Assembly: GCA_016841725.1 (NCBI GenBank)
Contig: JAENYP010000005.1
Coordinates: 1-59,392, forward strand
Length of the DNA stretch: 59,392 nucleotides
Source: Thermincola carboxydiphila
GTDB taxonomy: Bacteria; Bacillota; Thermincolia; Thermincolales; UBA2595
Direction: 5' to 3'
A program made the position numbers and the translations under genes. Every line of letters starts with the position of its first letter. Within the stretch, counting starts at the first letter, position 1. This document shows positions 18,556 to 34,850 of the stretch, piece by piece. A model generated the notes under the pieces. The model saw only the letters and a program-made list of their open reading frames with translations. It did not search any database and was not told where the DNA came from.

Positions 18556-20532
18556 TTACTTCACTTTAGACCTTACTCTACCCGGTATAGCTATTGCGGC
18601 TACAAGTACCAAAGCAACGATTGCGGCAGCCCACAGATACAAACTGTAATTGATAGTCCCGGTTTCCGTTCCGGCGCTTTCCGGGTTAACCACAGCTGTT
18701 TTAACTATAGTAACTGTCTTCCAAGCGTCAGACATTGCAGTCTGCACTTCTACCGGTATTACAGTCAGTGAGAGAGACTGATTAACCTGATAACCAGATT
18801 CATCAATGGCCCTGATACTGCCATCACCTGCAGGTACAACTGCCGACCACCAGCCTCTTTGGGCCCGGCTCAGTTTCACTGTCTTGGGTCCCACACTGTA
18901 ATCAATGGCTACAGCATTAAACAATGGCTTAATTTCCAGCATGTACGTTCCGTTAGTCTGAGCAGACTTTTTGATCTCCATCAGTGGCAGGCTGTTGTCA
19001 ATAGTAATAGTGTAAGTACTCTGCCTGGTAACTCCGAACTTATCAACGGCGTATACCTCGATGGGATACGGCCCGTCATCAGTACCAAAAGCCACCATAA
19101 AGGATACTGTCCAGAAACCTTTTTTGTCCTGCTTCAGTTCCAGCCTGCGGCCATCAGGCAGCAATGCATAAACCTGCACCGTATCGGCTCCCGGAGTTAC
19201 CCTGATTGTGGGGTCACCGGCGGGAACCCGGGTCGGGGTTACCTTTACTTCCAATGGTACAATCGGAGTCGGTTCAGGTCCGGCTGTTGGCGGAATGATT
19301 ATTTCAGAATCTTCTTCGTTGCCGAAATCGAGGTCTCTGTGGTTTTCGGTGTTCCTGTTAATATCAACCGTAAAATCGAAAGATTCGGGAGCAGTCTGGG
19401 TCCAGCCTTCCTGCTGCACTTCTGAAACTGTATAAGTACCGTAAGGAAGTCTGGTGAAACTGTAGTAACCGTCTTCATCGGTGATATCAGTATCCCCATT
19501 GCTGAGATTGATGGTCCAGCCGCTTAAGGCAGGTTCCGGGTCATCTCCGTCTTTGTCCCATTCACCGTTCCCGTTAAGGTCATTAAACTTATGTCCACTG
19601 ATGCTGCCATAATCTTCACCACCACCACTGGGGCGATAGTTGCCGAAATCCAGGTCTCCTGCTGATCTGTATGCTTCATCAAGAGTTACATCGAAGTATC
19701 CAGGGTTTTCTTCGGTATCGGGAGCTGTCTGGGTCCAGCCTGTCTGCTGTACTTCTTCGACCCTGTAATCTCCAAACTCCAGGTTGGTGAATTCATAATA
19801 CCCGCTGGAATTTGTTACTGTTTCGTCAATTTGTTCCTCACCAGAGTACAATTTGATGGTCCAGTTTGACAATCCGGGTTCCCCTGTATCCCAGAGGCTG
19901 TTCCGGTTGTTATCCTTGAATTTATGTCCACTGATCTTGCCTTCAGGGTATTCGCCTTCAGGGCGGTTACCGAAGTCCAGGTCAAATGGCGCCCCATTGT
20001 CATCGACTACGGTTATAGTGGCTTCAGCAGAAACGGGGTCTGGGGGAGCTACATAGCGCGCGTGATCTTCATCATACTCCTCGTCAACGTATTTCCCGTC
20101 TAAAGTTATTAACCGCAGACTTGCATCAGCATTAAGGAAGTATTCACCTGGATGTTTCCCATATACATTCACATTAACTGAATCTGACCCGCCGCAAATC
20201 AACCTTTTAGTACTGGTGTATGGCAGATACTCACTGTAAACCGTACCGTTGACTGACCATTCTATAATATCAGGCCCCAGGTCCACCTCGTAGTAGCCTA
20301 ACGAGGGTAAGGTTTGCTCCCAACCGGCTTGCATTACTTCTTCTATTCTGAACTTTCCATAAAAATCAGAATTAATTTCAAATTCATAATAACCATCTTC
20401 ATCGGTATATGTTTGGGCAACTACTGTTTCATTTACATTAATCATTCTGATTTCCCAGTCGGATAACCCGTCTTCATCATCATCCCAGACACCATTGCCG
20501 TTACTGTCCTTAAATTTATACCCACAAATCAT
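18556..20532 (-). CDS. cell-surface protein, SdrD B-like repeats and C-terminal membrane anchor (downstream part of a TGA-split gene)
   Basis: Three SdrD B-type domains are visible (I-x-G-x-K-F-x-D-x-N-x-N-x-x-W-D ... D-G-Y-Y-x-F ... V-x-E-V-x-Q-x-G-W-x-Q-T), at about residues 2-80, 197-290 and 312-405. They are calcium-binding Ig-like modules in staphylococcal Sdr proteins. A P/T-rich linker, two Ig-like domains (about 440-600) and one C-terminal helix plus basic tail (about 632-658) follow. There is no LPXTG and no signal peptide. The ATG has no ribosome site, and the frame is open upstream to a TGA at 20578 shared with the preceding ORF, so this is probably the C-terminal part of one protein. 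Confidence 0.8.
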   Translation of the reverse strand: MICGYKFKDSNGNGVWDDDEDGLSDWEIRMINVNETVVAQTYTDEDGYYEFEINSDFYGKFRIEEVMQAGWEQTLPSLGYYEVDLGPDIIEWSVNGTVYSEYLPYTSTKRLICGGSDSVNVNVYGKHPGEYFLNADASLRLITLDGKYVDEEYDEDHARYVAPPDPVSAEATITVVDDNGAPFDLDFGNRPEGEYPEGKISGHKFKDNNRNSLWDTGEPGLSNWTIKLYSGEEQIDETVTNSSGYYEFTNLEFGDYRVEEVQQTGWTQTAPDTEENPGYFDVTLDEAYRSAGDLDFGNYRPSGGGEDYGSISGHKFNDLNGNGEWDKDGDDPEPALSGWTINLSNGDTDITDEDGYYSFTRLPYGTYTVSEVQQEGWTQTAPESFDFTVDINRNTENHRDLDFGNEEDSEIIIPPTAGPEPTPIVPLEVKVTPTRVPAGDPTIRVTPGADTVQVYALLPDGRRLELKQDKKGFWTVSFMVAFGTDDGPYPIEVYAVDKFGVTRQSTYTITIDNSLPLMEIKKSAQTNGTYMLEIKPLFNAVAIDYSVGPKTVKLSRAQRGWWSAVVPAGDGSIRAIDESGYQVNQSLSLTVIPVEVQTAMSDAWKTVTIVKTAVVNPESAGTETGTINYSLYLWAAAIVALVLVAAIAIPGRVRSKVK

Positions 20533-20547
20533 ATCATCTTCATCGGA

Positions 20548-20580
20548 GGAAGTAATACTTACTTCCAGCTCTGCATATCA
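20548..20580 (-). other. in-frame TGA followed by a short hairpin
   Basis: TGA (20578-20580) joins two ORFs in one frame: W-A-G-Y before it and Y-A-E-L-E-V-S-I after it. Eleven bases after the TGA, GGAAGTAA pairs perfectly with TTACTTCC across a GTA loop (20548-20566). A nonsense change of a Trp codon is the simplest explanation. Readthrough or a SECIS-like element are alternatives that the sequence alone cannot exclude. Confidence 0.6.
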
Positions 20581-21147
20581 GTAACCTGCCCACGAAGTTA
20601 TATCCTGATAAACTGGGCTTACGACCGGAGTACTATCCTGTTCTTCCCCATCCAATTCGATTTTCCACCGGAAATCATCTCCTGATTCATATGTGTCATA
20701 GGAACTTACATCAATCATTGCGTCAATTTCAAATGGTTCTGTATAAAGGGTTTGTTCATTTACCAACTCAATGACTACATCATTACCGTCTCTACCCTCA
20801 TACGCAGCCCAATTTCCGGAACTGTCCTTATGCTCCATGTAAATGTTAAGGGAATTAACATATACAGAATCAACAACACCTGTTAAGCCTATTTCACCGG
20901 TAATATGTATTTTGTGGGGAGCAGTTACCTCAAATGAAATCTGTTCTTGTTCATTTGTATTAATTGTTACATTATCAGGATTTACCTCGAAATCGTTAAG
21001 ATCCCAGGTATTGAAGCCGACATTAATGTCAGCATCAATTTGCACTTCAGCAGAAGCAGCGCTGGGCAGCAAGAGAAGCAACGACATAACTAACAGCAAC
21101 CCCAAAACACATCTGACACCATGTATTCTGTTGTCCTTTTTATTCAC
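20578..21147 (-). CDS. signal-peptide-bearing N-terminal part of the surface protein
   Basis: Residues 1-33 form a Sec signal peptide (basic MNKKDNRIHGVR, a leucine-rich core, cleavage near ASA-EV). The rest is a beta-rich domain I do not recognise (VTINTNEQEQISFEVTAPHKIHITGEIG, then IELVNEQTLYTEPFEIDAMIDVSSYDTY). It ends in a TGA that is in frame with the downstream SdrD-repeat ORF. Joined, they give a protein of about 863 residues with signal peptide, repeats and membrane anchor, a normal surface-protein plan. The GTG start at 21147 has GGGAGGTG 7 nt upstream. Preceded by a small RiPP-precursor-like ORF on the same strand. Confidence 0.75.
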   Translation of the reverse strand: MNKKDNRIHGVRCVLGLLLVMSLLLLLPSAASAEVQIDADINVGFNTWDLNDFEVNPDNVTINTNEQEQISFEVTAPHKIHITGEIGLTGVVDSVYVNSLNIYMEHKDSSGNWAAYEGRDGNDVVIELVNEQTLYTEPFEIDAMIDVSSYDTYESGDDFRWKIELDGEEQDSTPVVSPVYQDITSWAGY

Positions 21148-21219: not shown

Positions 21220-21300
21220 TCACCAACCACAGTTACTTATAGCTGTCTCAAACTCAATTTCCTCTTCATGGGTTATCTCGGGTTTGGAATACTCTTTCAT
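21220..21300 (-). CDS. small RiPP precursor-like peptide 3 (26 aa)
   Basis: Found by direct reading. It starts MKEYSKPEI, continues with an acidic E-E-E-I-E-F-E-T block and ends S-N-C-G-W. ATG 21300 has GGGAGGT 7 nt upstream. Its leader matches that of the precursor at 21993-22121 (MK-x-Y-x-K-P-x-I ... E-x-E-I-x-F-E-T-x-x-S) in more than half of the positions. The core would be only the last few residues, with one Cys and one Trp. It could be a minimal precursor, a decoy leader or a decayed copy. It lies between an S26 peptidase gene and the surface-protein gene. Confidence 0.65.
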   Translation of the reverse strand: MKEYSKPEITHEEEIEFETAISNCGW

Positions 21301-21478
21301 CTTCCGTACCTCCCTTCGTCGGCTAAAAATTAATAATTTTCAAAATAATAATTGTTAAAAAAAAAGCTGCATAATAGCTGCCTCTTTTTCGCAAATAAAA
21401 AATAGAATAATTCCGCAATAAAATTTCCATATATTTATATTTTATAGTTCTTTAAAGACTAATACAATAAGTTTCTAT

Positions 21479-21949
21479 CTACATTTTTCGACATTTTTCG
21501 ATACGTCTGACAACCCTTAGAACCACGCGGCATAGTTTGGCCCAAAACCTTGCTGCAGATAGGGATGAACACAGCAGGCGGCCAAACAGCCGCCAAAACC
21601 CCCGGTTCGGGTTCCGGATACCGTATGTATCATGTTTCAGCATCACTACCTGGCCCAGTACTAAATCACGGGTAACCGGAGGGTCAAAACAAATATTGGT
21701 GTCCCCTTTTGTCAATATCAGGGGAACACTTTTATCATGTTGAACCCCCCAATACCGGTGTACCATCAGACCATTGCCCCCTTTTACCAAAATCATGGCC
21801 CCCTTTGGGGGCAGTTCTGCATCAAGAGGCGCTATTTCAGCCTTCATCCCTGCAATAATCGCAGGCCACATGCTGACACCTGAGGCTGTCATGAAGGCGT
21901 TTTTACCTGATTTAATTACATCTTCACAGAAAATCTGAGAATAGTCCAA
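21479..21949 (-). CDS. S26-type signal peptidase-like protein, module 2
   Basis: The S26 Ser motif is seen in TASGVSMWPAI, followed by ILVKGGNGLMVHRYWGV and LILTKGDTN-x-x-x-D-P-P. The H-R after the strand is where ER/SipW-type peptidases carry the catalytic His in place of the bacterial Lys. The C-terminal ~40 residues are basic and amphipathic (GRLLCSSLSAARFWAKLCRVVLRVVRRIEK). Start is uncertain: TTG 21949 has AAGGAG 6 nt upstream; ATG 22039 is longer but overlaps the precursor gene at 21993. A role in removing the leader of the neighbouring precursor is inferred from context. Confidence 0.78.
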   Translation of the reverse strand: MDYSQIFCEDVIKSGKNAFMTASGVSMWPAIIAGMKAEIAPLDAELPPKGAMILVKGGNGLMVHRYWGVQHDKSVPLILTKGDTNICFDPPVTRDLVLGQVVMLKHDTYGIRNPNRGFWRLFGRLLCSSLSAARFWAKLCRVVLRVVRRIEKCRKM

Positions 21950-21992
21950 TGGCAGCTCCTTATGCACCAGATTATTTAGGTAACTTATGTGT

Positions 21993-22121
21993 TTAGTCTC
22001 CTCCACCAAAGCCTCCAGTGCCTCCGACAGTACCCTCATGTTTGTAAAGCGGGCAGCTCACCAGAGTCTCAAACTGGATTTCCGTCTCATTTATTATCAT
22101 TGGCTTAACATATTGTTTCAT
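21993..22121 (-). CDS. RiPP precursor-like peptide 2 (42 aa)
   Basis: Starts MKQYVKPMII, then an acidic E-T-E-I-Q-F-E-T-L-V-S leader, a single Cys at residue 23 (SCPLYKHEG) and a Gly-rich tail (GGTGGFGGGD). The Y-x-K-P-x-I leader start matches the Y-x-x-P motif that RRE/PqqD-type domains bind in lasso systems. ATG 22121 has AAGGAGGTG about 7 nt upstream. It is sandwiched between the second HprK-like kinase and the second S26 peptidase. Probable modified region is the C-terminal half; the product is unknown. Confidence 0.78.
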   Translation of the reverse strand: MKQYVKPMIINETEIQFETLVSCPLYKHEGTVGGTGGFGGGD

Positions 22122-22125
22122 TTCT

Positions 22126-22947
22126 TTACACCTCCTTACCAAGTACTGTATCAATAGATTCCCAAAAGGTATCATCCTTCCTGAAATGAAGTTTAAAAAC
22201 GGGAACCTGTTTTAACAAATCGGCACAAAGACTAAAAATCTTATTTTCAAACAGTTGTGTCTTATTAATTGGGAAAAATACCATTGGCAAAATTGCGAAT
22301 ATAGCCTCTTTTGGCGGCATTTTTTCCAAAAAAACCCTGGAATCCTGTCTGAGAAAAAATATTCCGGCTATATCTGCAGTTGGAGGCAGGTAATCACTGT
22401 GAAATTCGCTGCGGAAAGGAGAGTGATGAATTGAAAAAAGACCTTTGTCATTCTTTTTTAGCAGGGTTACTTCATCTGAATAGATTACGGGATCCTCTGT
22501 CAGTTTGATAACAGTTGATTTGCCGGCCCCGGAATATCCGGTAAAGATGTAGGTTTTGCCGTTTCTCAGGATACATGAGGAATGCAGGGCCAGTCCGCCG
22601 CAATTCACAATTATGACTGTCACTACAGTTCTGAGGTAACTCACCAGAAATTCCCGGCCGCTAAACCATACCTTACCCTTCCCCTCAGCAAGGGAAAATG
22701 TTCCTTTATAACAAGGATGCTCCAATATCAGAATACCGTCATTAATACTTGCTTCCGGCGGTTGGCCCAGATATTGATAATTGTCCACTAAGGTCAGCCT
22801 CGAATCAGGAGCAATTTCAATTTCGGTCCCGGCACCATCTTCTGCCTGTTCACCTGAGAAGTGTTCCGCTAACCAAGCGACGATTTCATCATCATGGGTT
22901 TTAACAACAAATGGCATCTCAGCAAATTCAAGTAGTATTTTGTTCAA
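22126..22947 (-). CDS. HprK-like kinase domain protein, module 2
   Basis: The C-terminal HPr-kinase-like ATPase shows LHSSCILRNGKTYIFTG and Walker A GYSGAGKST, then a YSDEVTLLKK Asp and SPFRSEFHSDYLPP. Relatives in lasso clusters phosphorylate the precursor's C-terminal Ser. The N-terminal ~120 residues look like the usual beta-rich extension. TTG 22947 has GGGAGG 5 nt upstream; the ATG at 22995 would overlap pqqD and is an alternative. 273 aa by the TTG start. Followed 4 bp later by precursor 2. Confidence 0.82.
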   Translation of the reverse strand: MNKILLEFAEMPFVVKTHDDEIVAWLAEHFSGEQAEDGAGTEIEIAPDSRLTLVDNYQYLGQPPEASINDGILILEHPCYKGTFSLAEGKGKVWFSGREFLVSYLRTVVTVIIVNCGGLALHSSCILRNGKTYIFTGYSGAGKSTVIKLTEDPVIYSDEVTLLKKNDKGLFSIHHSPFRSEFHSDYLPPTADIAGIFFLRQDSRVFLEKMPPKEAIFAILPMVFFPINKTQLFENKIFSLCADLLKQVPVFKLHFRKDDTFWESIDTVLGKEV

Positions 22948-22981
22948 AGTGACCTCCCTATTCTTAGGAGCTTGTCCGAAA

Positions 22982-23254
22982 TTAAGCGGTAACAACCAAA
23001 TCTTTTGACTTTAATACTGCTAAAAATTCCTCCAAATCCGCTGCGGCCTCTTCCCGGCCAACATTAAACTCACGGCATATTTTATCCAGCAGATCCCCTT
23101 GGCTGTGGGGACTGTCAAGCAGCTCCCAAATAAAAGAACCCACTTCATTCAACGCCAATACCTTACCCTGTTGGGGGTCCATAATAACGGCCTCCCCATC
23201 GATTACTCTGGTAATCATTGTACTATTCCGGCAAAAATCAGCCAGGTCAGTCAT
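22982..23254 (-). CDS. PqqD-family RiPP recognition protein, module 2
   Basis: About 90 aa. The PqqD fold is seen in VIDGEAVIMDPQQGKVLALNE followed by VGSFIWELLDSPHSQGDL and a helical tail (EEAAADLEEFLAVLKSKDLV). PqqD/RRE proteins bind leader peptides and bring them to the modifying enzyme. ATG 23254 has AAGGAGGTGG close upstream; a longer reading to 23293 lacks a ribosome site. First gene of the second module, behind its own promoter. Confidence 0.85.
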   Translation of the reverse strand: MTDLADFCRNSTMITRVIDGEAVIMDPQQGKVLALNEVGSFIWELLDSPHSQGDLLDKICREFNVGREEAAADLEEFLAVLKSKDLVVTA

Positions 23255-23367
23255 TAGGCCACCTCCTTGTAGTAAAAATAAAAAGGACGTCATCCGATAA
23301 TCCCTTTTGGAATATCACGGCTCGTCCCTGAATCCGAAACTAAATCTTCAATTTTTATTTATGTTCA

Positions 23368-23397
23368 ATTTTACCACACAAGTTATTTCCTGGTCAA
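23368..23397 (-). promoter_or_regulatory. sigma-A type promoter of RiPP module 2
   Basis: Minus strand TTGACC (23392-23397), an 18 bp spacer and TAAAAT (23368-23373), about 115 bp upstream of the PqqD gene and downstream of the ABC transporter stop. Confidence 0.65.
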
Positions 23398-23435
23398 TAC
23401 TTTTTCATAATATTTAAACAATTATACAGGACATA

Positions 23436-25112
23436 TTATTGGCAAGTTTCTTCCACCAATCTGCCCTCTTCTATTCTGAGGACCCTGGAACATATTTTTA
23501 AGGCTGTCAGCCTGTGGGTAATGACCAAACACGTCCGTGAATCACCCATATCTTTCATCGCCTGCAGGACATGCTTTTCTGTTTCCACATCCAGGGCAGA
23601 AGTTGCTTCATCAAATATCATGACCGGCGCTTCCCGTAAAAAAGCCCGGGCAATGGCAATCCTTTGGGCCTGTCCCTCAGAAAGCCTCAGGCCGCGCTCT
23701 CCGATGACTGTATTCAGGTCTTGAGGCATCTTGGCAATAAAGTCCTCCGCGGCAGCCATCCGTAAAGCCCTTTCCATCTCCGCCATTGATGCATCCGTTT
23801 TGCCACTGCGCAGATTATCCGCAATCGTGCCGCTGAATAAGGTGTTTTCCTGGGGTACATAGGTAAGCCAGTCCCGGGTTGCGGCCGATACCTCATACCG
23901 GCTCCCCTTCCGGTCTGTAAAGTACACCTGACCGGCGCTCGGGCGAAGCAGGGCCAGCAGTAACCGGATCAGGGTGGTTTTGCCCTCCCCGGAAGAACCC
24001 ACTAAAGCCACCAGCTGACCTGGCAGAATTTCTGTGGTTACATTGGACAATACCGGCCTTTCGGGCGAATAATCAAAGCTGACATCCTCAAAGACAATGC
24101 CGACATCCCGGATTGCCGGAACACGCTCAGTTATTTTTTCACTCTCCATCTTCTCCAGTTCCATCAAACGCTCCATTGATGCTATCATATTAATCAGATT
24201 GGAAATCGTTCTGGCCAGCCCGACAAAAGGGCTCTGGACCTGCTGCACCAACTGCAGAAAAGCAGTCATGGTGCCAAAGCTGATTGCCTTCTGGGAGATA
24301 CGGTAAGCGCCCCAGCCAAAGGCCAGCAAATATCCCGACCAGTAGCCCACAGCGAGTACGTTGTTGGCTGCAAGTGTTTTCCTGTTTTTTTGAATAACCC
24401 ATTTCATCCTGTTTTCATGCAGGCTTTGTAAAGTATCCTCATTATGTTTCTCCAGCCGGAAAGACTTAATCACAATAAAATTCTGCAGGGCTTCCTGCAG
24501 GTGGGAACGATAAGCGCTCTCGGATTCCTGGACCTTAATCTGCAGCTTTTTTAAGGTGCGGCCCCATATCCGGCTGAAGATTATGGAGCAGGGCCCCAGG
24601 ACAAAAGCGAAAATAGCCAGATATGGTTCAAAATATAACAAGGCCGCAAATGAGGCCACTAATTGAGCAGTTAAAGCAAACATACCCGGAATCACGTTGA
24701 CGATGGTATTGGTGATAGCGCTGACATCACTGGTCATCCGGGTTAACAGATCACCACTGTGATAAGCAGTCAGAGACTGCCATTCTGTGCCCAGCAGCTG
24801 CCTAAAAACGCGCTGCCGGATAGAATTGGAAAAGGACTCGGAGACCCGCACCGAAAGCAGTGATACACCTACCTGCAGTAAAAGATTGCTGATAATCAGC
24901 AGCACAAAAACTCCGGCGGCAATAGCGGTTAAGCGCAGTTCATTAGCCACCGCGTGATCGATCATGTTTTTGGAGGCAAAGGCTGTAGCCACATTCATCA
25001 GTGACCCCAAAACCTGAATCAGCAAAATAGCTGCCAGCGCCGGCAGGTACGGGAAAAGATCCGGCTTAATCCAATGTGCAAATTGTCTTAGTTTGCTTAG
25101 CATTCCACTCAT
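23436..25112 (-). CDS. ABC transporter, fused permease and ATPase (peptide exporter type)
   Basis: 558 aa half-transporter. Six membrane helices are expected in residues 15-310. The ATPase domain shows Walker A VGSSGEGKTTLIRLLL, the signature LSEGQAQRIAIARAF, Walker B VMIFDEATSALD and the switch His (VITHRL). There is no N-terminal C39 peptidase domain, so leader removal must come from elsewhere; the neighbouring S26 proteins are candidates. The ATG overlaps the stop of the S26 gene by 4 bp. By position it exports the mature peptide or its transport intermediate. Confidence 0.93.
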   Translation of the reverse strand: MSGMLSKLRQFAHWIKPDLFPYLPALAAILLIQVLGSLMNVATAFASKNMIDHAVANELRLTAIAAGVFVLLIISNLLLQVGVSLLSVRVSESFSNSIRQRVFRQLLGTEWQSLTAYHSGDLLTRMTSDVSAITNTIVNVIPGMFALTAQLVASFAALLYFEPYLAIFAFVLGPCSIIFSRIWGRTLKKLQIKVQESESAYRSHLQEALQNFIVIKSFRLEKHNEDTLQSLHENRMKWVIQKNRKTLAANNVLAVGYWSGYLLAFGWGAYRISQKAISFGTMTAFLQLVQQVQSPFVGLARTISNLINMIASMERLMELEKMESEKITERVPAIRDVGIVFEDVSFDYSPERPVLSNVTTEILPGQLVALVGSSGEGKTTLIRLLLALLRPSAGQVYFTDRKGSRYEVSAATRDWLTYVPQENTLFSGTIADNLRSGKTDASMAEMERALRMAAAEDFIAKMPQDLNTVIGERGLRLSEGQAQRIAIARAFLREAPVMIFDEATSALDVETEKHVLQAMKDMGDSRTCLVITHRLTALKICSRVLRIEEGRLVEETCQ

Positions 25113-25618
25113 GAATTCCCCCGAGGTTCCAATAAAATTTTCAGGAACTTGGAAAGAAACGGCCGGTGTAAAACCGTTTTTATTATCTGAGGCCTAATGG
25201 GACGCACCAGCAGCCATAATTCAGAAATAAACCGGTAACCCCTCTCACTGCAGCGGATGGTTTTTTCTTTTCTGATTAGTTCCATGACCACTGCCAGGAC
25301 TTCTTCTTCCCGGATAGGACCTTCAATCCAGGTCTGAGCATCCCCAAGCATATAATACATCGAGTTTTTTACATGGTGAATCCGGTGCAGGACATGTGTG
25401 CCGTCTTTTCTTGCATACAGGACAATATCGCCGCGTTTCAGGTGTCTTCCCGAGGCCGCCGCAATAATAACCTCATCCCTGCCGCCTACGAGCAAAGGAA
25501 ACATACTTAATCCTGCAAAGGGTAATCTTAAGGTATGACCTGCAGCCAAAACCGGCATGATAGCTGAAGACCACTGAGCTGCGGGAATAAATCCAGGGCT
25601 TAATTTATTTACAGACAC
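25109..25618 (-). CDS. S26-type signal peptidase-like protein, module 1
   Basis: Shows the S26 Ser motif (LPFAGLSMFPLL), the strand KRGDIVLYARKDG and HVLHRIHHV, where His-Arg occupies the Lys position, as in SipW/ER-type enzymes. MLGDAQTWIEGPI matches the following GD motif. The basic C-terminus (RPFLSKFLKILLEPRG) may bind the membrane. Start uncertain: GTG 25618 lies just before the end of the kinase gene; the reading to 25657 overlaps it by 49 bp. Directly coupled to the ABC transporter, which supports a leader-processing role (inference). Confidence 0.8.
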   Translation of the reverse strand: MSVNKLSPGFIPAAQWSSAIMPVLAAGHTLRLPFAGLSMFPLLVGGRDEVIIAAASGRHLKRGDIVLYARKDGTHVLHRIHHVKNSMYYMLGDAQTWIEGPIREEEVLAVVMELIRKEKTIRCSERGYRFISELWLLVRPIRPQIIKTVLHRPFLSKFLKILLEPRGNS

Positions 25619-26469
25619 TTTTTCACCAACTCCACCGCCGCAAAATCCGGCAGGCAATTAAGCAGGTAACAGTCAGTCTTGGCGGCAATTTCCTGCACCG
25701 TATCCAGGTATTGATGCATCAGTTTCTCGTTCCAGGGCAATAGAAAGCATCTGGCGGCTAGCCTGATAATGCTTTCCCGCAAGTCGAGCCTGACGATACT
25801 GTTCTCCTGGGCCTGCTGTAAAAATACGATGGCCCCGAGAGGGGCGCTTTGATTAAGGAATTCTCCTGAGGTACCGCACCAGGGAAGGCCATAGACAACC
25901 GGGGTTCCATCTGCAACCCGGCAGGCGGCAGAGTCTCCGTCCAGGATTGGAGTGTGATATAACTGCTGCCAGAGGTGAGCATGGGTAGATTTACCGGTTC
26001 CGGCCGGGGCGGAAAACATGATTCCCCTGCCCTGCCATAAAATCGTACTGGAATGAATGATAACCCCATTTTTCTGTGCCAGTCTTCCGATCATAACATC
26101 GCGCAAAGAGACATGAATCCCGTCTTGGACAACCTGAACTATCTCAGCATCATCCGGATTGTTGTATTCAAGATCTACGAACATGGTATACGCAGACCAG
26201 TCCATAGATACGGCAGTATATGACGGGATATCGTGATCATCACCGCTTAAATTATGAATAAATTCGCTGTCCTCGAAAATTAATGTCCCCGGCGTGTCAG
26301 CAATTATTTTAACTCCACCCGCCGGTTTATCAGGACGCTTTTTAAACACAACTTTGCAGTGAATATCCGGATTGCCTTGCCGGCACGAAAACAATTTAAG
26401 GTTGTCATGCAAAGCCCAATCAGGGGCAGCTATTTCCATAATCAAATCAGAAATACAATATTTCGTCAA
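25609..26469 (-). CDS. HprK-like kinase domain protein, module 1
   Basis: An HPr-kinase-like ATPase: IIHSSTILWQGRGIMF, Walker A SAPAGTGKSTHAHLW, then ILDGDSAACRV and VVYGLPWCGTSGEF. The arrangement resembles kinases of paeninodin-type lasso clusters that phosphorylate a precursor C-terminus; precursor 1 just upstream ends S-N-G-S-T. Start TTG 26469 has GGAGGAGG 5 nt upstream; ATG 26514 lacks a site. 286 aa. Confidence 0.84.
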   Translation of the reverse strand: MTKYCISDLIMEIAAPDWALHDNLKLFSCRQGNPDIHCKVVFKKRPDKPAGGVKIIADTPGTLIFEDSEFIHNLSGDDHDIPSYTAVSMDWSAYTMFVDLEYNNPDDAEIVQVVQDGIHVSLRDVMIGRLAQKNGVIIHSSTILWQGRGIMFSAPAGTGKSTHAHLWQQLYHTPILDGDSAACRVADGTPVVYGLPWCGTSGEFLNQSAPLGAIVFLQQAQENSIVRLDLRESIIRLAARCFLLPWNEKLMHQYLDTVQEIAAKTDCYLLNCLPDFAAVELVKKCL

Positions 26470-26534
26470 GAGGTCCTCCTCCAACTTATCTATGCTAAAA
26501 GAAAAGAAGCACACGATAGTGTGCCTGGTAGAAA

Positions 26535-26708
26535 TTATGTACTTCCATTAGATTTAAATGCTGCCCACTCTTCGTCACTGGGTGACCAACCGGGAATATA
26601 ATAACAGGTTTCTTTTTTGTCATTACCCTTAGTACAGTTGGTAAAAACATTTTCGAACTGGGCATAGGCTGTGGCATCAAGCTGCGGTTTGGTGTATTCT
26701 TTTTTCAT
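26535..26708 (-). CDS. RiPP precursor-like peptide 1 (57 aa)
   Basis: Starts MKKEYTKPQL, with the Y-x-K-P-x-L leader motif. A second half holds C25 and C35, tandem Tyr and a Trp (E-T-C-Y-Y-I-P-G-W-S-P-S) and ends F-K-S-N-G-S-T. The Cys/Tyr/Trp-rich core is the sort of sequence radical SAM enzymes crosslink, but the chemistry cannot be read from it. ATG 26708 has GAGGTG 6 nt upstream. Flanked by the radical SAM gene and the HprK-like kinase gene. Confidence 0.82.
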   Translation of the reverse strand: MKKEYTKPQLDATAYAQFENVFTNCTKGNDKKETCYYIPGWSPSDEEWAAFKSNGST

Positions 26709-26726
26709 AATGATCACCTCACTACC

Positions 26727-26756
26727 TAAATACTACTAAATACTACTAAATACTAC
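26727..26756. repeat. three perfect 10 bp tandem repeats in the precursor 1 leader
   Basis: TAAATACTAC three times in a row (26727-26756), with a partial fourth unit on each side. They lie between the proposed promoter and the ribosome site of precursor 1. Confidence 0.85.
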
Positions 26757-26764
26757 TTAAATTA

Positions 26765-26793
26765 AAACTACCATATTTTATGAATCTTGTCCA
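26765..26793 (-). promoter_or_regulatory. possible promoter of precursor 1
   Basis: Minus strand TGGACA (26788-26793), 17 bp and TAGTTT (26765-26770). The -10 box is weak, but position and spacing fit separate, stronger expression of the precursor from within the operon. Confidence 0.4.
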
Positions 26794-26815
26794 GCATTAA
26801 TTTTCATAAAATTCT

Positions 26816-27955
26816 TTATTCTGTCTTAAACCGCCTTGATCTCTCCTTAGCGACCTCACAAATATAGGGAGAAATCCGGTGTAAAGACCCTGTTTCCGTT
26901 TGAAGTATGGCCGGACAATTGGAGCATCTTCCATTGGCATATTCGCATTTCCGGCATTCCTCCGGAAGCGATAGATCTTCAAATAAAGCCGGCAGGCGGT
27001 CCCAGGCCTGCTGGAAACCCTCTTCAAACGGTACAGTGTAAGGGCTTACAAAGGAACCGCAGGGCAGCATTTTGCCATCCCAGGTAATCCAGTACATGGA
27101 CTTTGCCGCCAGACAGGTAATGATTTTGGGAGGGAGGTTAAACCCATATACCCTCGCCTGCACATGGTTATCTGTCTCCATATTCCTTTCCAGAGCAGAT
27201 TCCGTCTCGCTGTTAAGTAACCGATAATATTCCGCATTAGCCTCAGCAAGATCAAACATTTGTACAGGTGTCAGCCTGCAGTTTTCCACATCGGAACATG
27301 CTCCCCGCACAGCCTTATTCACCGTTACATTAATCCCAAAGCGTTTGGTATACCTGTTGGCTATTTCGCGAAGGGCATCTAATTCATGCATATTATCACG
27401 GATAAAAGTCGTCCGGACTTCGAGCGCCGTGGCAACCTCTGTAAGCATTTCCAGACCTCTGATCGTGGCCTGAAAAGCTTCTGGATTGCCACAGATTGAC
27501 TCATAGGTCTGCGGGTTTGCCCCATATAAGGTGACATTTGTTGCGGTAGGCGGGTATTTCTTAAAGAGCTTAAGTATTTCCGGAGTTATCAGGGTGGCAT
27601 TGGTATTTAAGGTGATTACAAATCCCATCATCGTCAGGGCGGTATAGATCTCAGCAAAATCCTCCCGTAATAGGGGCTCCCCCCCGGTAAGCAGCAGATT
27701 CAGTGTCCCGGCCTTGATGGCCTCTTTGGCCAGGCCAATCCATTCAGCTGCCGTCCTCTCCCTGCCTATTGGCTCCATTTGACGTTTATCAAGCCTGATG
27801 TAACACATCTTGCAGCTCAGGTTGCATCGCGGGGTTAACTCAAAGGTACCGCCTAAAGGAATATGCCTCTGCGCAGCATATCCGGCCAGGGTAATCTCCG
27901 AACTTTCCCACTTTTGGGCAAGCCTATTATTGTTCCTCTTAATTTCAGTACTCAT
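26816..27955 (-). CDS. radical SAM/SPASM peptide-modifying enzyme
   Basis: The radical SAM cluster motif is C44-x3-C48-x2-C51 (PRCNLSCKMC), followed by LLLTGGEPLLREDF for SAM binding. A C-terminal SPASM domain supplies auxiliary-cluster cysteines (IITCLAAKSM, MLPCGSF, CRKCEYANGRCSNCPA, ICEVAKE). 379 aa, like PqqE or sactisynthase enzymes. It overlaps the upstream PqqD gene by 4 bp (ATGA) and is followed by precursor 1, which makes it the likely peptide-crosslinking enzyme. Bond type (thioether, C-C or epimerisation) is unknown. It is the only such enzyme in the two-module locus. Confidence 0.92.
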   Translation of the reverse strand: MSTEIKRNNNRLAQKWESSEITLAGYAAQRHIPLGGTFELTPRCNLSCKMCYIRLDKRQMEPIGRERTAAEWIGLAKEAIKAGTLNLLLTGGEPLLREDFAEIYTALTMMGFVITLNTNATLITPEILKLFKKYPPTATNVTLYGANPQTYESICGNPEAFQATIRGLEMLTEVATALEVRTTFIRDNMHELDALREIANRYTKRFGINVTVNKAVRGACSDVENCRLTPVQMFDLAEANAEYYRLLNSETESALERNMETDNHVQARVYGFNLPPKIITCLAAKSMYWITWDGKMLPCGSFVSPYTVPFEEGFQQAWDRLPALFEDLSLPEECRKCEYANGRCSNCPAILQTETGSLHRISPYICEVAKERSRRFKTE

Positions 27956-28218
27956 TCCTCAAGAACCCCGTTCTGCCGGGCATCCTCCAGAAATTCATCA
28001 AGGTCGGCCCTGGCGGTGGCCTCATCAATTTCATATTCATCCAGAATGGCTGACAGTAATTGAGCATAAGCAATATCCTCAGAGAGACACTTCCAGATAA
28101 AATAACCCGTATCATTCAAGGTCATGATCCCCTTGAAGTCTATCACCCGGTCGCCAATGGGAACAACGATATGACAATCGGCAATCTCTCTGACAAGATA
28201 ACCTTCTTTAATTCTCAT
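27952..28218 (-). CDS. PqqD-family RiPP recognition protein, module 1
   Basis: 88 aa with the PqqD winged-helix pattern (VIDFKGIMTLNDTGYFIWKCL, then an acidic helix ATARADLDEFLEDA). It probably binds the Y-x-K-P leader and presents the precursor to the radical SAM enzyme, with which it is translationally coupled. The ATG follows the stop of the metallophosphoesterase gene by one base. Confidence 0.88.
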   Translation of the reverse strand: MRIKEGYLVREIADCHIVVPIGDRVIDFKGIMTLNDTGYFIWKCLSEDIAYAQLLSAILDEYEIDEATARADLDEFLEDARQNGVLEE

Positions 28219-28219
28219 C

Positions 28220-29074
28220 TCAATCTCCTGCCTTCCGTTGTAAAGTAATCACTGTTATCTCGGGCCTGGTAAGGAAACGCAGCGGAATATTATTTACACC
28301 CAGCCCGCGGTTAACATACATCTGGGTGTTCCCCACCTGGAAAAGCCCGGCCATGTATTTTTCATAGCCCTTTTTAACAATATGTAAAAAATCGGGCATA
28401 TATGGTGACTTAATCTGCCCGCCATGGGTATGTCCGGCAAGGACCAGGTCAACCCCTGCTTTGGAGGCAGCATCAATGATTTCCGGCCGGTGGGCCAGCG
28501 CTATAGCAGGTTCCCCTTCGTTATGCAGTAAGTCTGCAAAGTCCCCGGTGTCCTGATAGGTACGGGTATAGTTAAGGCCGATTAAACTAACAGCCTGCCC
28601 TTTGACCTTCAAGGGCAGTTTTTCGTCATTAAGTGTTTTGATATCCAATTGCTCCATTACTGTCTTAATTTTATTGAGACCAAGGTAGGTATCATTATTG
28701 CCATAGACGTAAAACACCCCATATGGAGCATTCAAGCCGCCCAGGGCATTTTCCGCATATCCCAGTGGTGTTTCATTTGATTCATCAAATACATCACCTG
28801 TGATCACAACCAGATCAGGTTTCAGGGCATTAACCCGGCTTACCAGCCCCTTTTCCGGGAATAATTTACCGTGCAGGTCGGAAAGCTGAACTATCCTGAA
28901 CCCCTCAAAAGCCGCAGGCAGCCTCTCTATATAGACCGGTTGTTCCTTTTCCTGGATCCAGTCAGGCTCAATCCTGGCGGCATAAAACACCAGAAGGGCC
29001 ACGATCACTCCCGTAGTAAGCAAAGACTGGAGAATAAATCTGGTTACCTTCCAGATGGCTTTCAATATTGGCAT
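28220..29074 (-). CDS. membrane-anchored metallophosphoesterase (YkuE/YaeI-like)
   Basis: Calcineurin-like phosphoesterase motifs are complete: LSDLHGK (D-x-H), VVITGDVFDE (G-D), YGNNDT (G-N-x-D), LAHRPEI and LAGHTHGGQ. One N-terminal helix (about residues 8-28) anchors it, and the catalytic domain faces outside. Relatives act on lipid or cell-wall phosphates; the substrate here is unknown. ATG 29074 has GAAGGAG upstream. It is coupled to the PqqD gene, and a remnant of a similar gene lies at about 34.8 kb. Confidence 0.9.
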   Translation of the reverse strand: MPILKAIWKVTRFILQSLLTTGVIVALLVFYAARIEPDWIQEKEQPVYIERLPAAFEGFRIVQLSDLHGKLFPEKGLVSRVNALKPDLVVITGDVFDESNETPLGYAENALGGLNAPYGVFYVYGNNDTYLGLNKIKTVMEQLDIKTLNDEKLPLKVKGQAVSLIGLNYTRTYQDTGDFADLLHNEGEPAIALAHRPEIIDAASKAGVDLVLAGHTHGGQIKSPYMPDFLHIVKKGYEKYMAGLFQVGNTQMYVNRGLGVNNIPLRFLTRPEITVITLQRKAGD

Positions 29075-33629: not shown

Positions 33630-34784
33630 TTAGGTATTTCTGATAGTATAGGGAACTTTGCCTTTAAATAGTATGTAGCTGAAATAAAATACTGTCTTAA
33701 AAACAAAAGTAAAAAATCGAATCGGATAAAAAATACAGGCTCCCAGTACACTAACATTATAAACCTTGCGCATCTGAGAAACGGGAGGAAATAAAATACG
33801 CCATATAGATACCAAAAACCCACTTAAACCTTCATTGCGAACAAGGCCGCTGGTAATAAAGCTCAGTTTTTGGGGCAAATGCTCCGGTCTGCACTCGCGT
33901 TCTAACAAATAACGAATATAGCCTGAAGGTTTAATATCCTCTAAAACCGAACTGGGAACGGGTGCAGAAAACATAATGGCAGCAAAATTAAGAGAGGCAA
34001 AAACCCTGTGGGTAATATGATACTCCTTTACCAACCGTGTGAACTCCGGCCAATCAATCAAATGCTCTTCTTTTTCTATTATCCTACAAACGTCAAGTAC
34101 ATGCCTTAAAATTTCAAAATTATGCCCGGCAGAATGTAAACAAAGGTGAATTAATAAATCCATCGGGGCTAATTGTTGCGCTGCACTTTGATTGTCGCCT
34201 GCCGTTAACGCCCTCTTCCATATGTCTTGCATTTTAATAAACTTGTTAGACCGATGAGTAAAACTAAAATGCAATTCAACGAAATACTGCCCCAATGAAG
34301 TTACCTTGCCCAATTTGACATGATGATTAAATTCATTGTCCCAGGAAGCATCCTCTTCTTCTTCAACATATTTATAACCCATTCCTCCAAGTACATCGAC
34401 GGCCTTCTTCAGATTATCTTCTTCCACCATTATATCTATATCCCAGCTCCGCCTTACCCCTGGGTCATCATACAATCTGAGAGCCAATATCGCCCCCTTT
34501 AGAACAATACTGGGAATCCCTGAATTACGCATATTAGTTGCCACGATTTCTGTTTCCTTCATAAAACAAAGATTAGCGCCTAATGTTCGAAGATATTGTT
34601 TTTCAAGATAAGCCAGCACAGTTTTGGGAACTGATTCCTTAGACACTTCTTTAAGAATAAGTAATAATAATTCCTCAACCTTGTGTTGTTTAGCATTTTT
34701 TAAGACCATATCCCATGCAGGCATGTCATTAGCAGCCGGAATTGACTTTTTTCTAAAAATTTGGAGTAAATCAGATTTGCTCAT
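33630..34784 (-). CDS. nucleotidyltransferase family protein (PF14907 type)
   Basis: The core motif VLKGAILALRLYDDPGVRRSWDIDIMV (positions about 98-124) carries the D-x-D of this nucleotidyltransferase family; helical regions with HLCLHSAGHNFEILRHVLDVCRI follow. Such proteins are frequent beside PqqD, HprK-like and lasso genes, but their reaction is unknown. Start ATG 34784 sits in an ATGA overlap with a relic of a metallophosphoesterase gene. 384 aa. By family it belongs with the RiPP genes more than with the EPS genes around it. Confidence 0.82.
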   Translation of the reverse strand: MSKSDLLQIFRKKSIPAANDMPAWDMVLKNAKQHKVEELLLLILKEVSKESVPKTVLAYLEKQYLRTLGANLCFMKETEIVATNMRNSGIPSIVLKGAILALRLYDDPGVRRSWDIDIMVEEDNLKKAVDVLGGMGYKYVEEEEDASWDNEFNHHVKLGKVTSLGQYFVELHFSFTHRSNKFIKMQDIWKRALTAGDNQSAAQQLAPMDLLIHLCLHSAGHNFEILRHVLDVCRIIEKEEHLIDWPEFTRLVKEYHITHRVFASLNFAAIMFSAPVPSSVLEDIKPSGYIRYLLERECRPEHLPQKLSFITSGLVRNEGLSGFLVSIWRILFPPVSQMRKVYNVSVLGACIFYPIRFFTFVFKTVFYFSYILFKGKVPYTIRNT

Positions 34785-34850
34785 AGTCTCCCCACCCAAT
34801 TTTGTTTTGCCGGTAAAGTAATCACTATAATTTCAGGCTGAACCAAAAAA
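34781..34850 (-). pseudogene. 3'-terminal remnant of a metallophosphoesterase gene
   Basis: About 22 codons in frame (F-L-V-Q-P-E-I-I-V-I-T-L-P-A-K) ending in a TGA that overlaps the nucleotidyltransferase start. They match the C-terminus of the intact phosphoesterase at 28220-29074 (F-L-T-R-P-E-I-T-V-I-T-L), including the 13 base string GTGATTACTTTAC. The rest of the gene is missing; the next 35 bases lead to another gene. Confidence 0.7.

Follow-up and report, generated by a model that had tools for sequence, protein, structure and literature searches.

Two adjacent RiPP systems of probable LPP type in Thermincola carboxydiphila, one of them with a radical SAM enzyme

Introduction

Does a gene cluster that combines a radical S-adenosylmethionine (rSAM) enzyme with HprK-like kinases and SipW-like peptidases belong to a known class of ribosomally synthesized and post-translationally modified peptides (RiPPs)? 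This question is raised by positions 21220-28218, minus strand, of contig JAENYP010000005.1 from Thermincola carboxydiphila (GCA_016841725.1). The window, that is, the whole stretch of DNA analyzed, is positions 1-59,392 of this contig. An initial annotation described the locus as a two-module RiPP locus, possibly undescribed, whose exact gene set is not known from any characterised family. We consider it probable that two adjacent RiPP systems of the linear polyphosphorylated peptide (LPP) type lie here. Judged by its leader motif and anatomy, the second module is an LPP system; the novel remainder is the first module, apparently an undescribed version of LPP with an rSAM enzyme and a Cys-containing precursor.

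The LPP class was described by Popov et al. (Nat Commun, May 2026; PMC13381572) from the lpp cluster of Paenibacillus alginolyticus. Its gene set consists of LppB, a RiPP recognition element (RRE); LppK, an HprK-like kinase; LppS, a SipW-like peptidase with S29, H68 and D93; LppD, an MsbA-like pump; and LppN, a nucleoside triphosphate (NTP) transferase. The leader has the motif YxxPxVLxHQxIxFETxxS, cleavage occurs behind T-1, and the phosphates are placed on Ser3. LPP clusters are found in capsular loci and are often co-located with paeninodin lasso clusters (PMC13381572).

The locus was compared with two congeners (genomes G001 and G002), with a member of another genus of the same family (G003), and with a member of another family (G185). 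A wider set of 80 rSAM loci was obtained with the rSAM alignment alone from a scan of GTDB species genomes. The literature search covered the open library and, for the LPP paper, its main text.

Module 2 and the LPP family

All genes named in the initial annotation are present, on the minus strand and in the order PqqD1, rSAM/SPASM, A1, K1, S26a, ABC, PqqD2, K2, A2, S26b, A3 (Table 1). PqqD1, the rSAM/SPASM protein, precursor A1, kinase K1, peptidase S26a and the MsbA-type exporter make up module 1; PqqD2, K2, precursor A2 and S26b, together with precursor A3, make up module 2. The description as a two-module RiPP locus is supported.

Precursor A2 (MKQYVKPMIINETEIQFET before the cleavage position, LVSCPLYKHEGTVGGTGGFGGGD behind it) has the exact LPP register with Ser3, and A3 (MKEYSKPEITHEEEIEFET followed by AISNCGW) carries Ser3 in a short core. 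Y-16, P-13, I-5, F-3, E-2 and T-1 are found in both. Y-16, P-13, F-3, E-2, T-1 and Ser3 are common to A2, A3, their G002 orthologues and two G003 precursors; with core starts of LVS, AIS, RIS, FVS and GWS, Ser3 is thus present in six module 2-type precursors from three species. No curated model matched the precursors.

The likeness to LPP includes the RRE, the HprK-like kinase, the SipW-like peptidase, the MsbA-like pump and the NTP transferase, the YxxP...FET/xxS pattern of A2 and A3, the setting in a polysaccharide locus, and the paeninodin lasso cassette that neighbours the system in the congener G002. The predicted triad spacing of S26b is close to that of LppS (38 residues from Ser to His and 25 from His to Asp, against 39 and 25 in LppS), and one transporter serves two modules here. 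Because A2 and A3 stand in exact LPP register, and the LPP gene core and a nucleotidyltransferase (NTase) in a polysaccharide locus are present, we assign module 2 to LPP. As stated, the absence of this gene set from characterised families is not supported, since LPP has its core and module 2 is a member by leader motif. The suggestion of an undescribed system is withdrawn for module 2 and kept for module 1, the rSAM variant. Similarly, the idea that the rSAM enzyme takes the place of a lasso cyclase fits module 1 and not module 2, which has neither enzyme.

A module 2 without an rSAM gene occurs in G003, together with an NTP transferase and the two precursors MRKYSKPAIVFEESVVFETFVSRCE and MKRKYIKPIIVIEETITFETGWSCWDLPQ. 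K2 has orthologues in G002 (78% identical) and G003 (52%), and S26b has orthologues in both genomes. By analogy with LPP, we infer that in both modules the PqqD-like RRE would bind the YxxP leader of its precursor, the HprK-like kinase would phosphorylate the core, and the cytosolic SipW-like serine peptidase would cut the leader off behind FE[T/N]. One MsbA-like pump probably exports both products. The expected target of K2 is Ser3 of A2 and A3, which it would (poly)phosphorylate, and the NTP transferase at 33630 is a candidate for decorating the phosphate.

Module 1 and its radical SAM enzyme

Compared to LPP, module 1 adds the rSAM/SPASM protein, and A1 has two Cys, FEN for FET and Thr3 for Ser3. 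The main text of the LPP paper nowhere uses the word 'radical' (PMC13381572). A1 contains a leader of the form Y-16 KP ... FEN and a predicted core VFTNCTKGNDKKETCYYIPGWSPSDEEWAAFKSNGST with two conserved Cys. Y-16, P-13, F-3, E-2 and the two Cys are kept in A1 from four genomes, and position -1 is Asn or Ser. The SPASM model matches the rSAM protein below its cut-off, yet seven Cys of the SPASM region are invariant in an alignment of six relatives. Profile matches were obtained to SkfB (6efn, E = 1e-22), the nearest solved structure, and to PqqE.

Judging from the composition of the locus, the SPASM enzyme would modify A1, most likely by forming a thioether from one of the two conserved Cys (C5 in a Cys-X3-Asn motif), and K1 would phosphorylate a residue other than Ser3, A1 being without Ser3. 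The most likely chemistry of module 1 is a Cys crosslink and phosphorylation, S26 cleavage and export, the order of steps being likewise read from the gene content.

The whole locus is present in G002, with an rSAM protein 89% identical to that of the window. The ratios of nonsynonymous to synonymous substitution rates (dN/dS) against G002 are 0.03-0.32 for the enzymes (0.03 for PqqD1) and, within A1, 0.24 in the leader as compared to 0.87 in the core. G001 carries a decayed module 1 (L022:3794-5918), in which the rSAM gene has a large internal deletion and K1 is truncated beside a surface protein gene. The rSAM and K1 proteins of G185 are 77% and 59% identical to those of the window, which is consistent with horizontal transfer. 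Conservation in G002, together with the recurrence of rSAM, kinase and PqqD genes in most of the 80 loci, argues that the locus is more than a chance assembly.

The locus also resembles SynChlorMet (TIGR04248-04251; ScmC/D/E/F), in which PqqD-like, HprK-like and rSAM/SPASM proteins occur together; among NCBIfam models, K1, K2, the rSAM protein and PqqD2 match those of SynChlorMet best or nearly best. It differs in having one rSAM protein, not two, and in having an S26 peptidase and an exporter. Membership was rejected, as the bit scores are all far below the cut-offs (K2, 41 against 125; PqqD2, 43 against 100; rSAM, 82 against 400).

Recurrence of the radical SAM, kinase and PqqD genes

The 80 rSAM loci are mostly from gut and rumen Clostridia. 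Within a few kb of the rSAM gene, an HprK-like kinase was found at 68 loci, a PqqD gene at 64, both at 58 and an S26 gene at 29; these counts are lower bounds because some of the loci are cut off by contig ends. Lasso C or B2 genes were found at none of the 80. The recurrence of rSAM, kinase and PqqD genes without lasso genes supports the initial annotation on this point. Kinase matches are concentrated near the rSAM genes (76 within 4 kb, compared to 2 in a similar amount of farther DNA), and rSAM and kinase distances correlate (Mantel rho 0.51, p 0.001).

The rSAM-linked precursors have a common MKKxYxKP leader. At least two Cys are present in 45 of 56, and 39 of 56 end in Ser, as compared to 10% of background open reading frames. 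In the class of precursors containing CY[H], all 25 end in Ser. There is about an even chance, in our estimation, that module 1 is a branch of a large undescribed RiPP class, mainly of gut and rumen Clostridia, defined by a SPASM rSAM enzyme and a PqqD protein, an HprK-like kinase that coevolves, and a precursor rich in Cys that carries the MKKxYxKP leader. The products of this class would have both radical crosslinks and phosphate, the latter in many members on a C-terminal Ser that is invariant.

Pairs of an rSAM-linked module with a Cys-rich precursor and an rSAM-free module with its own kinase were also observed in other Bacillota (L073, L038 and L040). It could be argued that both modules contribute to a single two-component product, as they share one exporter and as rSAM-linked and rSAM-free modules are also neighbours in G185 and L073. 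However, module 2 stands alone in G003, and an RRE, a kinase and a peptidase are encoded in each of the two. We therefore regard a joint product as decidedly improbable and treat the modules as two systems.

The kinases and the case against an LPP-type module 1

Neither K1 nor K2 matched the HprK models of Pfam. The profile of the K1/K2 family matches HPr kinase/phosphorylase structures, and the AlphaFold2 (AF2) model of K1 (pLDDT 93.7) matches the PEPCK/HprK superfamily. K1 contains H139, the P-loop GTGKST and a DGD motif. In the window's genome the kinase profile matches K1 and K2 only.

Several observations weigh against two systems of LPP type. LppB is matched by PqqD1 and PqqD2 no better than lasso RREs are: PqqD2 matches TbiB1 (5v1u) with E = 7e-11 and both PbaB1 (9x90) and LppB (9x8z) with E = 2e-5, and PqqD1 gives weak matches to TbiB1 (0.003), PbaB1 (0.005) and LppB (0.012). 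Position 3 of A1 is Thr in the window, G001 and G002 and Ala in G185, in place of Ser3, and a Ser3Thr substitution in LppA abolished phosphorylation (PMC13381572). The rSAM protein matches no NCBIfam model above its cut-off, and no curated model predicts the thioether. Most of the wider rSAM family has no S26 gene within 5 kb. Finally, the motif is DGD in K1 and SDE in K2, as compared to TDD in the lasso kinase of G002, which suggests that K1 may be short of one acidic motif residue.

Part of this evidence points to another explanation, in which module 1 is of ranthipeptide or sactipeptide type, K1 is inactive as a kinase and has a binding or structural role, and the product is a thioether peptide without phosphate. 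Like PapB, SkfB and AlbA systems, module 1 combines a SPASM rSAM maturase with a Cys-containing precursor. Beyond what they have, module 1 includes a kinase, an S26 peptidase and a separate RRE; none of the curated maturase models passed its cut-off, and the crosslink is a prediction. K1 and 64 rSAM-linked kinases (loci L046-L125) have Gly-Asp in place of the Asp-Asp of the G002 lasso kinase, as compared to 8 with Asp-Asp, and the lack of Ser3 in A1 fits a silent kinase as well. On the other hand, 90 of 91 kinases retain both the His and the P-loop Lys, and the exception is truncated. Moreover, the precursors of Gly-Asp kinases end in Ser in 35 of 39 cases, as compared to 1 of 19 for the others, and lasso HprK-like kinases are known to act on a C-terminal Ser (PMC9266682), although the association is largely a clade effect. 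We also considered whether the Gly-for-Asp change evolved together with the C-terminal Ser and rejected it: there are only about five changes on the kinase tree, with too few independent pairs. An inactive K1 thus appears unlikely, and we favour an LPP-type module 1 with a working kinase.

The S26 peptidases

The S26 family profile matches SEC11 and SpsB and contains invariant GSMxP, HR and GD motifs. S26a has the Ser in GLSMFP, the His in VLHR and GD, with Glu at the second acidic position. In its model the fold is that of LexA/signal peptidase and a membrane helix at the N-terminus is missing; for this reason S26a is more likely to be a cytosolic leader peptidase than a Sec signal peptidase.

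SipW handles matrix proteins in Bacillus, and S26b, A3 and a surface gene pair adjoin one another in the window's genome, G002 and G003. The S26 proteins could by this evidence be ordinary SipW-like signal peptidases for the surface proteins at 18556-21147, the small open reading frames being unrelated. However, no membrane helix is predicted at the N-terminus of S26a, many rSAM loci combine S26 with PqqD and kinase genes, and leader cleavage has been demonstrated for the homologue LppS (PMC13381572). A signal-peptidase role is accordingly very improbable, and leader cleavage is the preferred function. A role of S26 in processing a TasA-like neighbour was also rejected, as the neighbouring protein is not TasA- or camelysin-like in Pfam.

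Relation to lasso peptide clusters

The link of the kinase and leader types with lasso clusters, made in the initial annotation, was a good lead. The locus shares with paeninodin-type clusters (PadeA/K/C/B1/B2, PsmN) an HprK-like kinase, a PqqD-like B1 protein, an NTP transferase and a [Y/W]xxP leader; it differs in having no cyclase or B2, an S26 peptidase standing in place of B2. In G002 a complete paeninodin-type lasso cassette (NTase, cyclase, precursor, kinase, B1, B2; L021:2775-7821) lies at the same site, between the phosphoesterase gene and PqqD1. Its precursor (MKKEWQRPVVETLDIAETM followed by LGTGMSNIDFSYSDEDETVFLHSS) has a core compatible with an L1-D9 ring. The WQRP of its leader, as compared to YxxP in the LPP leaders, agrees with the published rule that Y and W discriminate between the two kinds of leader (PMC13381572). 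G001 keeps a remnant of the lasso-cassette NTase beside PqqD1.

The cassette of G002 and the remnant in G001 could suggest that the locus is a degraded or split lasso locus, with cyclase and B2 encoded elsewhere or recently lost. G002, however, holds the whole rSAM/LPP locus next to a lasso cassette that is equipped with an RRE, kinase and precursor of its own, and the two systems are therefore separate. The initial annotation saw no lasso cyclase and no transglutaminase-like protease, and this was borne out: a search of the window's genome found no B2 domain, and the locus contains no cyclase. Asn_synthase matches in the genome other than AsnB are weak, and the one inspected belongs to another polysaccharide context. 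With lasso C or B2 also found at none of the 80 other loci, the degraded-lasso explanation is largely refuted and its remaining probability is minimal. Loss of an ancestral lasso cassette from the window's lineage is the simplest history, while the junction alone fits either loss or gain.

Organization of the locus and its surroundings

Table 1. Positions of the two modules and of neighbouring features in the window
Feature	Position	Strand	Basis or remark
PqqD1, discrete RRE	27952..28218	-	PF05402 E = 6e-17, above Pfam cut-off
Radical SAM/SPASM maturase, CX3CX2C and seven conserved SPASM-region Cys	26816..27955	-	PF04055 E = 8e-23, above Pfam cut-off
Precursor A1	26535..26708	-	Orthologues in G001, G002, G185; leader profile match
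Terminator-like hairpin, directly 3' of A1	26507..26526	-	Kept in G001 and G002
K1, HprK-like kinase, TTG start	25609..26469	-	Profile matches HPr kinase PDB entries; AF2 fold
S26a, predicted soluble SipW/LppS-like leader peptidase, GTG start	25109..25618	-	TIGR02228 E = 1e-6
MsbA-type ABC exporter without C39 peptidase domain (Pfam)	23436..25112	-	PF00664/PF00005; best NCBIfam match MsbA E = 2e-88, below cut-off
PqqD2, discrete RRE of LPP-type module	22982..23254	-	PF05402 E = 3e-20, above Pfam cut-off
K2, second HprK-like kinase	22126..22947	-	TIGR04249 E = 1e-10, below cut-off
Precursor A2	21993..22121	-	LPP leader register including Ser3
S26b, LppS-like peptidase	21479..21949	-	TTG start after AAGGAG; alternative start 22039 overlaps A2
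Precursor A3, short-core LPP precursor	21220..21300	-	Ser3; similar short-core precursors in G003
NTP_transf_5 nucleotidyltransferase, LppN/PsmN-like	33630..34799	-	PF14907 E = 2e-48
Calcineurin-like phosphoesterase	28220..29074	-	PF00149; adjacent in G002 and G003
Signal-peptide protein (20578-21147) and SdrD/SpaA-domain surface protein (18556-20532), after A3	18556..21147	-	

The PqqD1 and rSAM genes are translationally coupled through an ATGA overlap, and the K1/S26a and S26a/ABC genes overlap as well. These overlaps and the start codons suggest tight operons. The hairpin behind A1, of which G185 has a degenerate version, is a probable attenuator between the precursor and enzyme genes, and would lift the precursor level above that of the enzymes. 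A promoter-like site at 23397-23368, upstream of PqqD2, is fitting for two transcription units, in a scan that yields barely more promoters than chance. Just upstream of A1, at 26725-26755 of the window, about three units of a tandem repeat (TAGTAGTATT) were observed; the repeat is not present in that form in G002 and G001.

The NTP_transf_5 gene lies 4.6 kb upstream of the phosphoesterase gene, inside the polysaccharide locus, and its product is 47% identical to the NTase of the G002 lasso cassette. It is probably part of the system, and the extent of 21220-28218 is then incomplete. The large co-directional exopolysaccharide locus upstream (29114-54773) encodes Wzz, a Wzx-like flippase, glycosyltransferases, UDP-sugar dehydrogenases and a heparinase-like protein. 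In three species the phosphoesterase gene neighbours the system; the protein has an N-terminal hydrophobic stretch, and its substrate could be the phosphorylated product or lipids. An LPP precursor directly upstream of a gene pair for a signal-peptide protein and an SdrD/SpaA surface protein was seen in three species, twice in G003 (L153:3071-7387), and a functional tie between the peptide and the surface proteins is possible. Conservation in this setting, next to surface-protein genes and a polysaccharide locus, offers no more than a hint of a biological role.

Implications

If our interpretation is correct, module 1 would join radical C-S crosslinking with peptide (poly)phosphorylation, a pairing not found in the open literature searched, and the LPP family would gain a radical SAM branch. 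The locus would also be a natural test case for the Y/W leader rule, as two LPP-type systems lie together here and are accompanied in a congener by a lasso system. Many uncharacterised gut-bacterial clusters would be indicated by the same reading.

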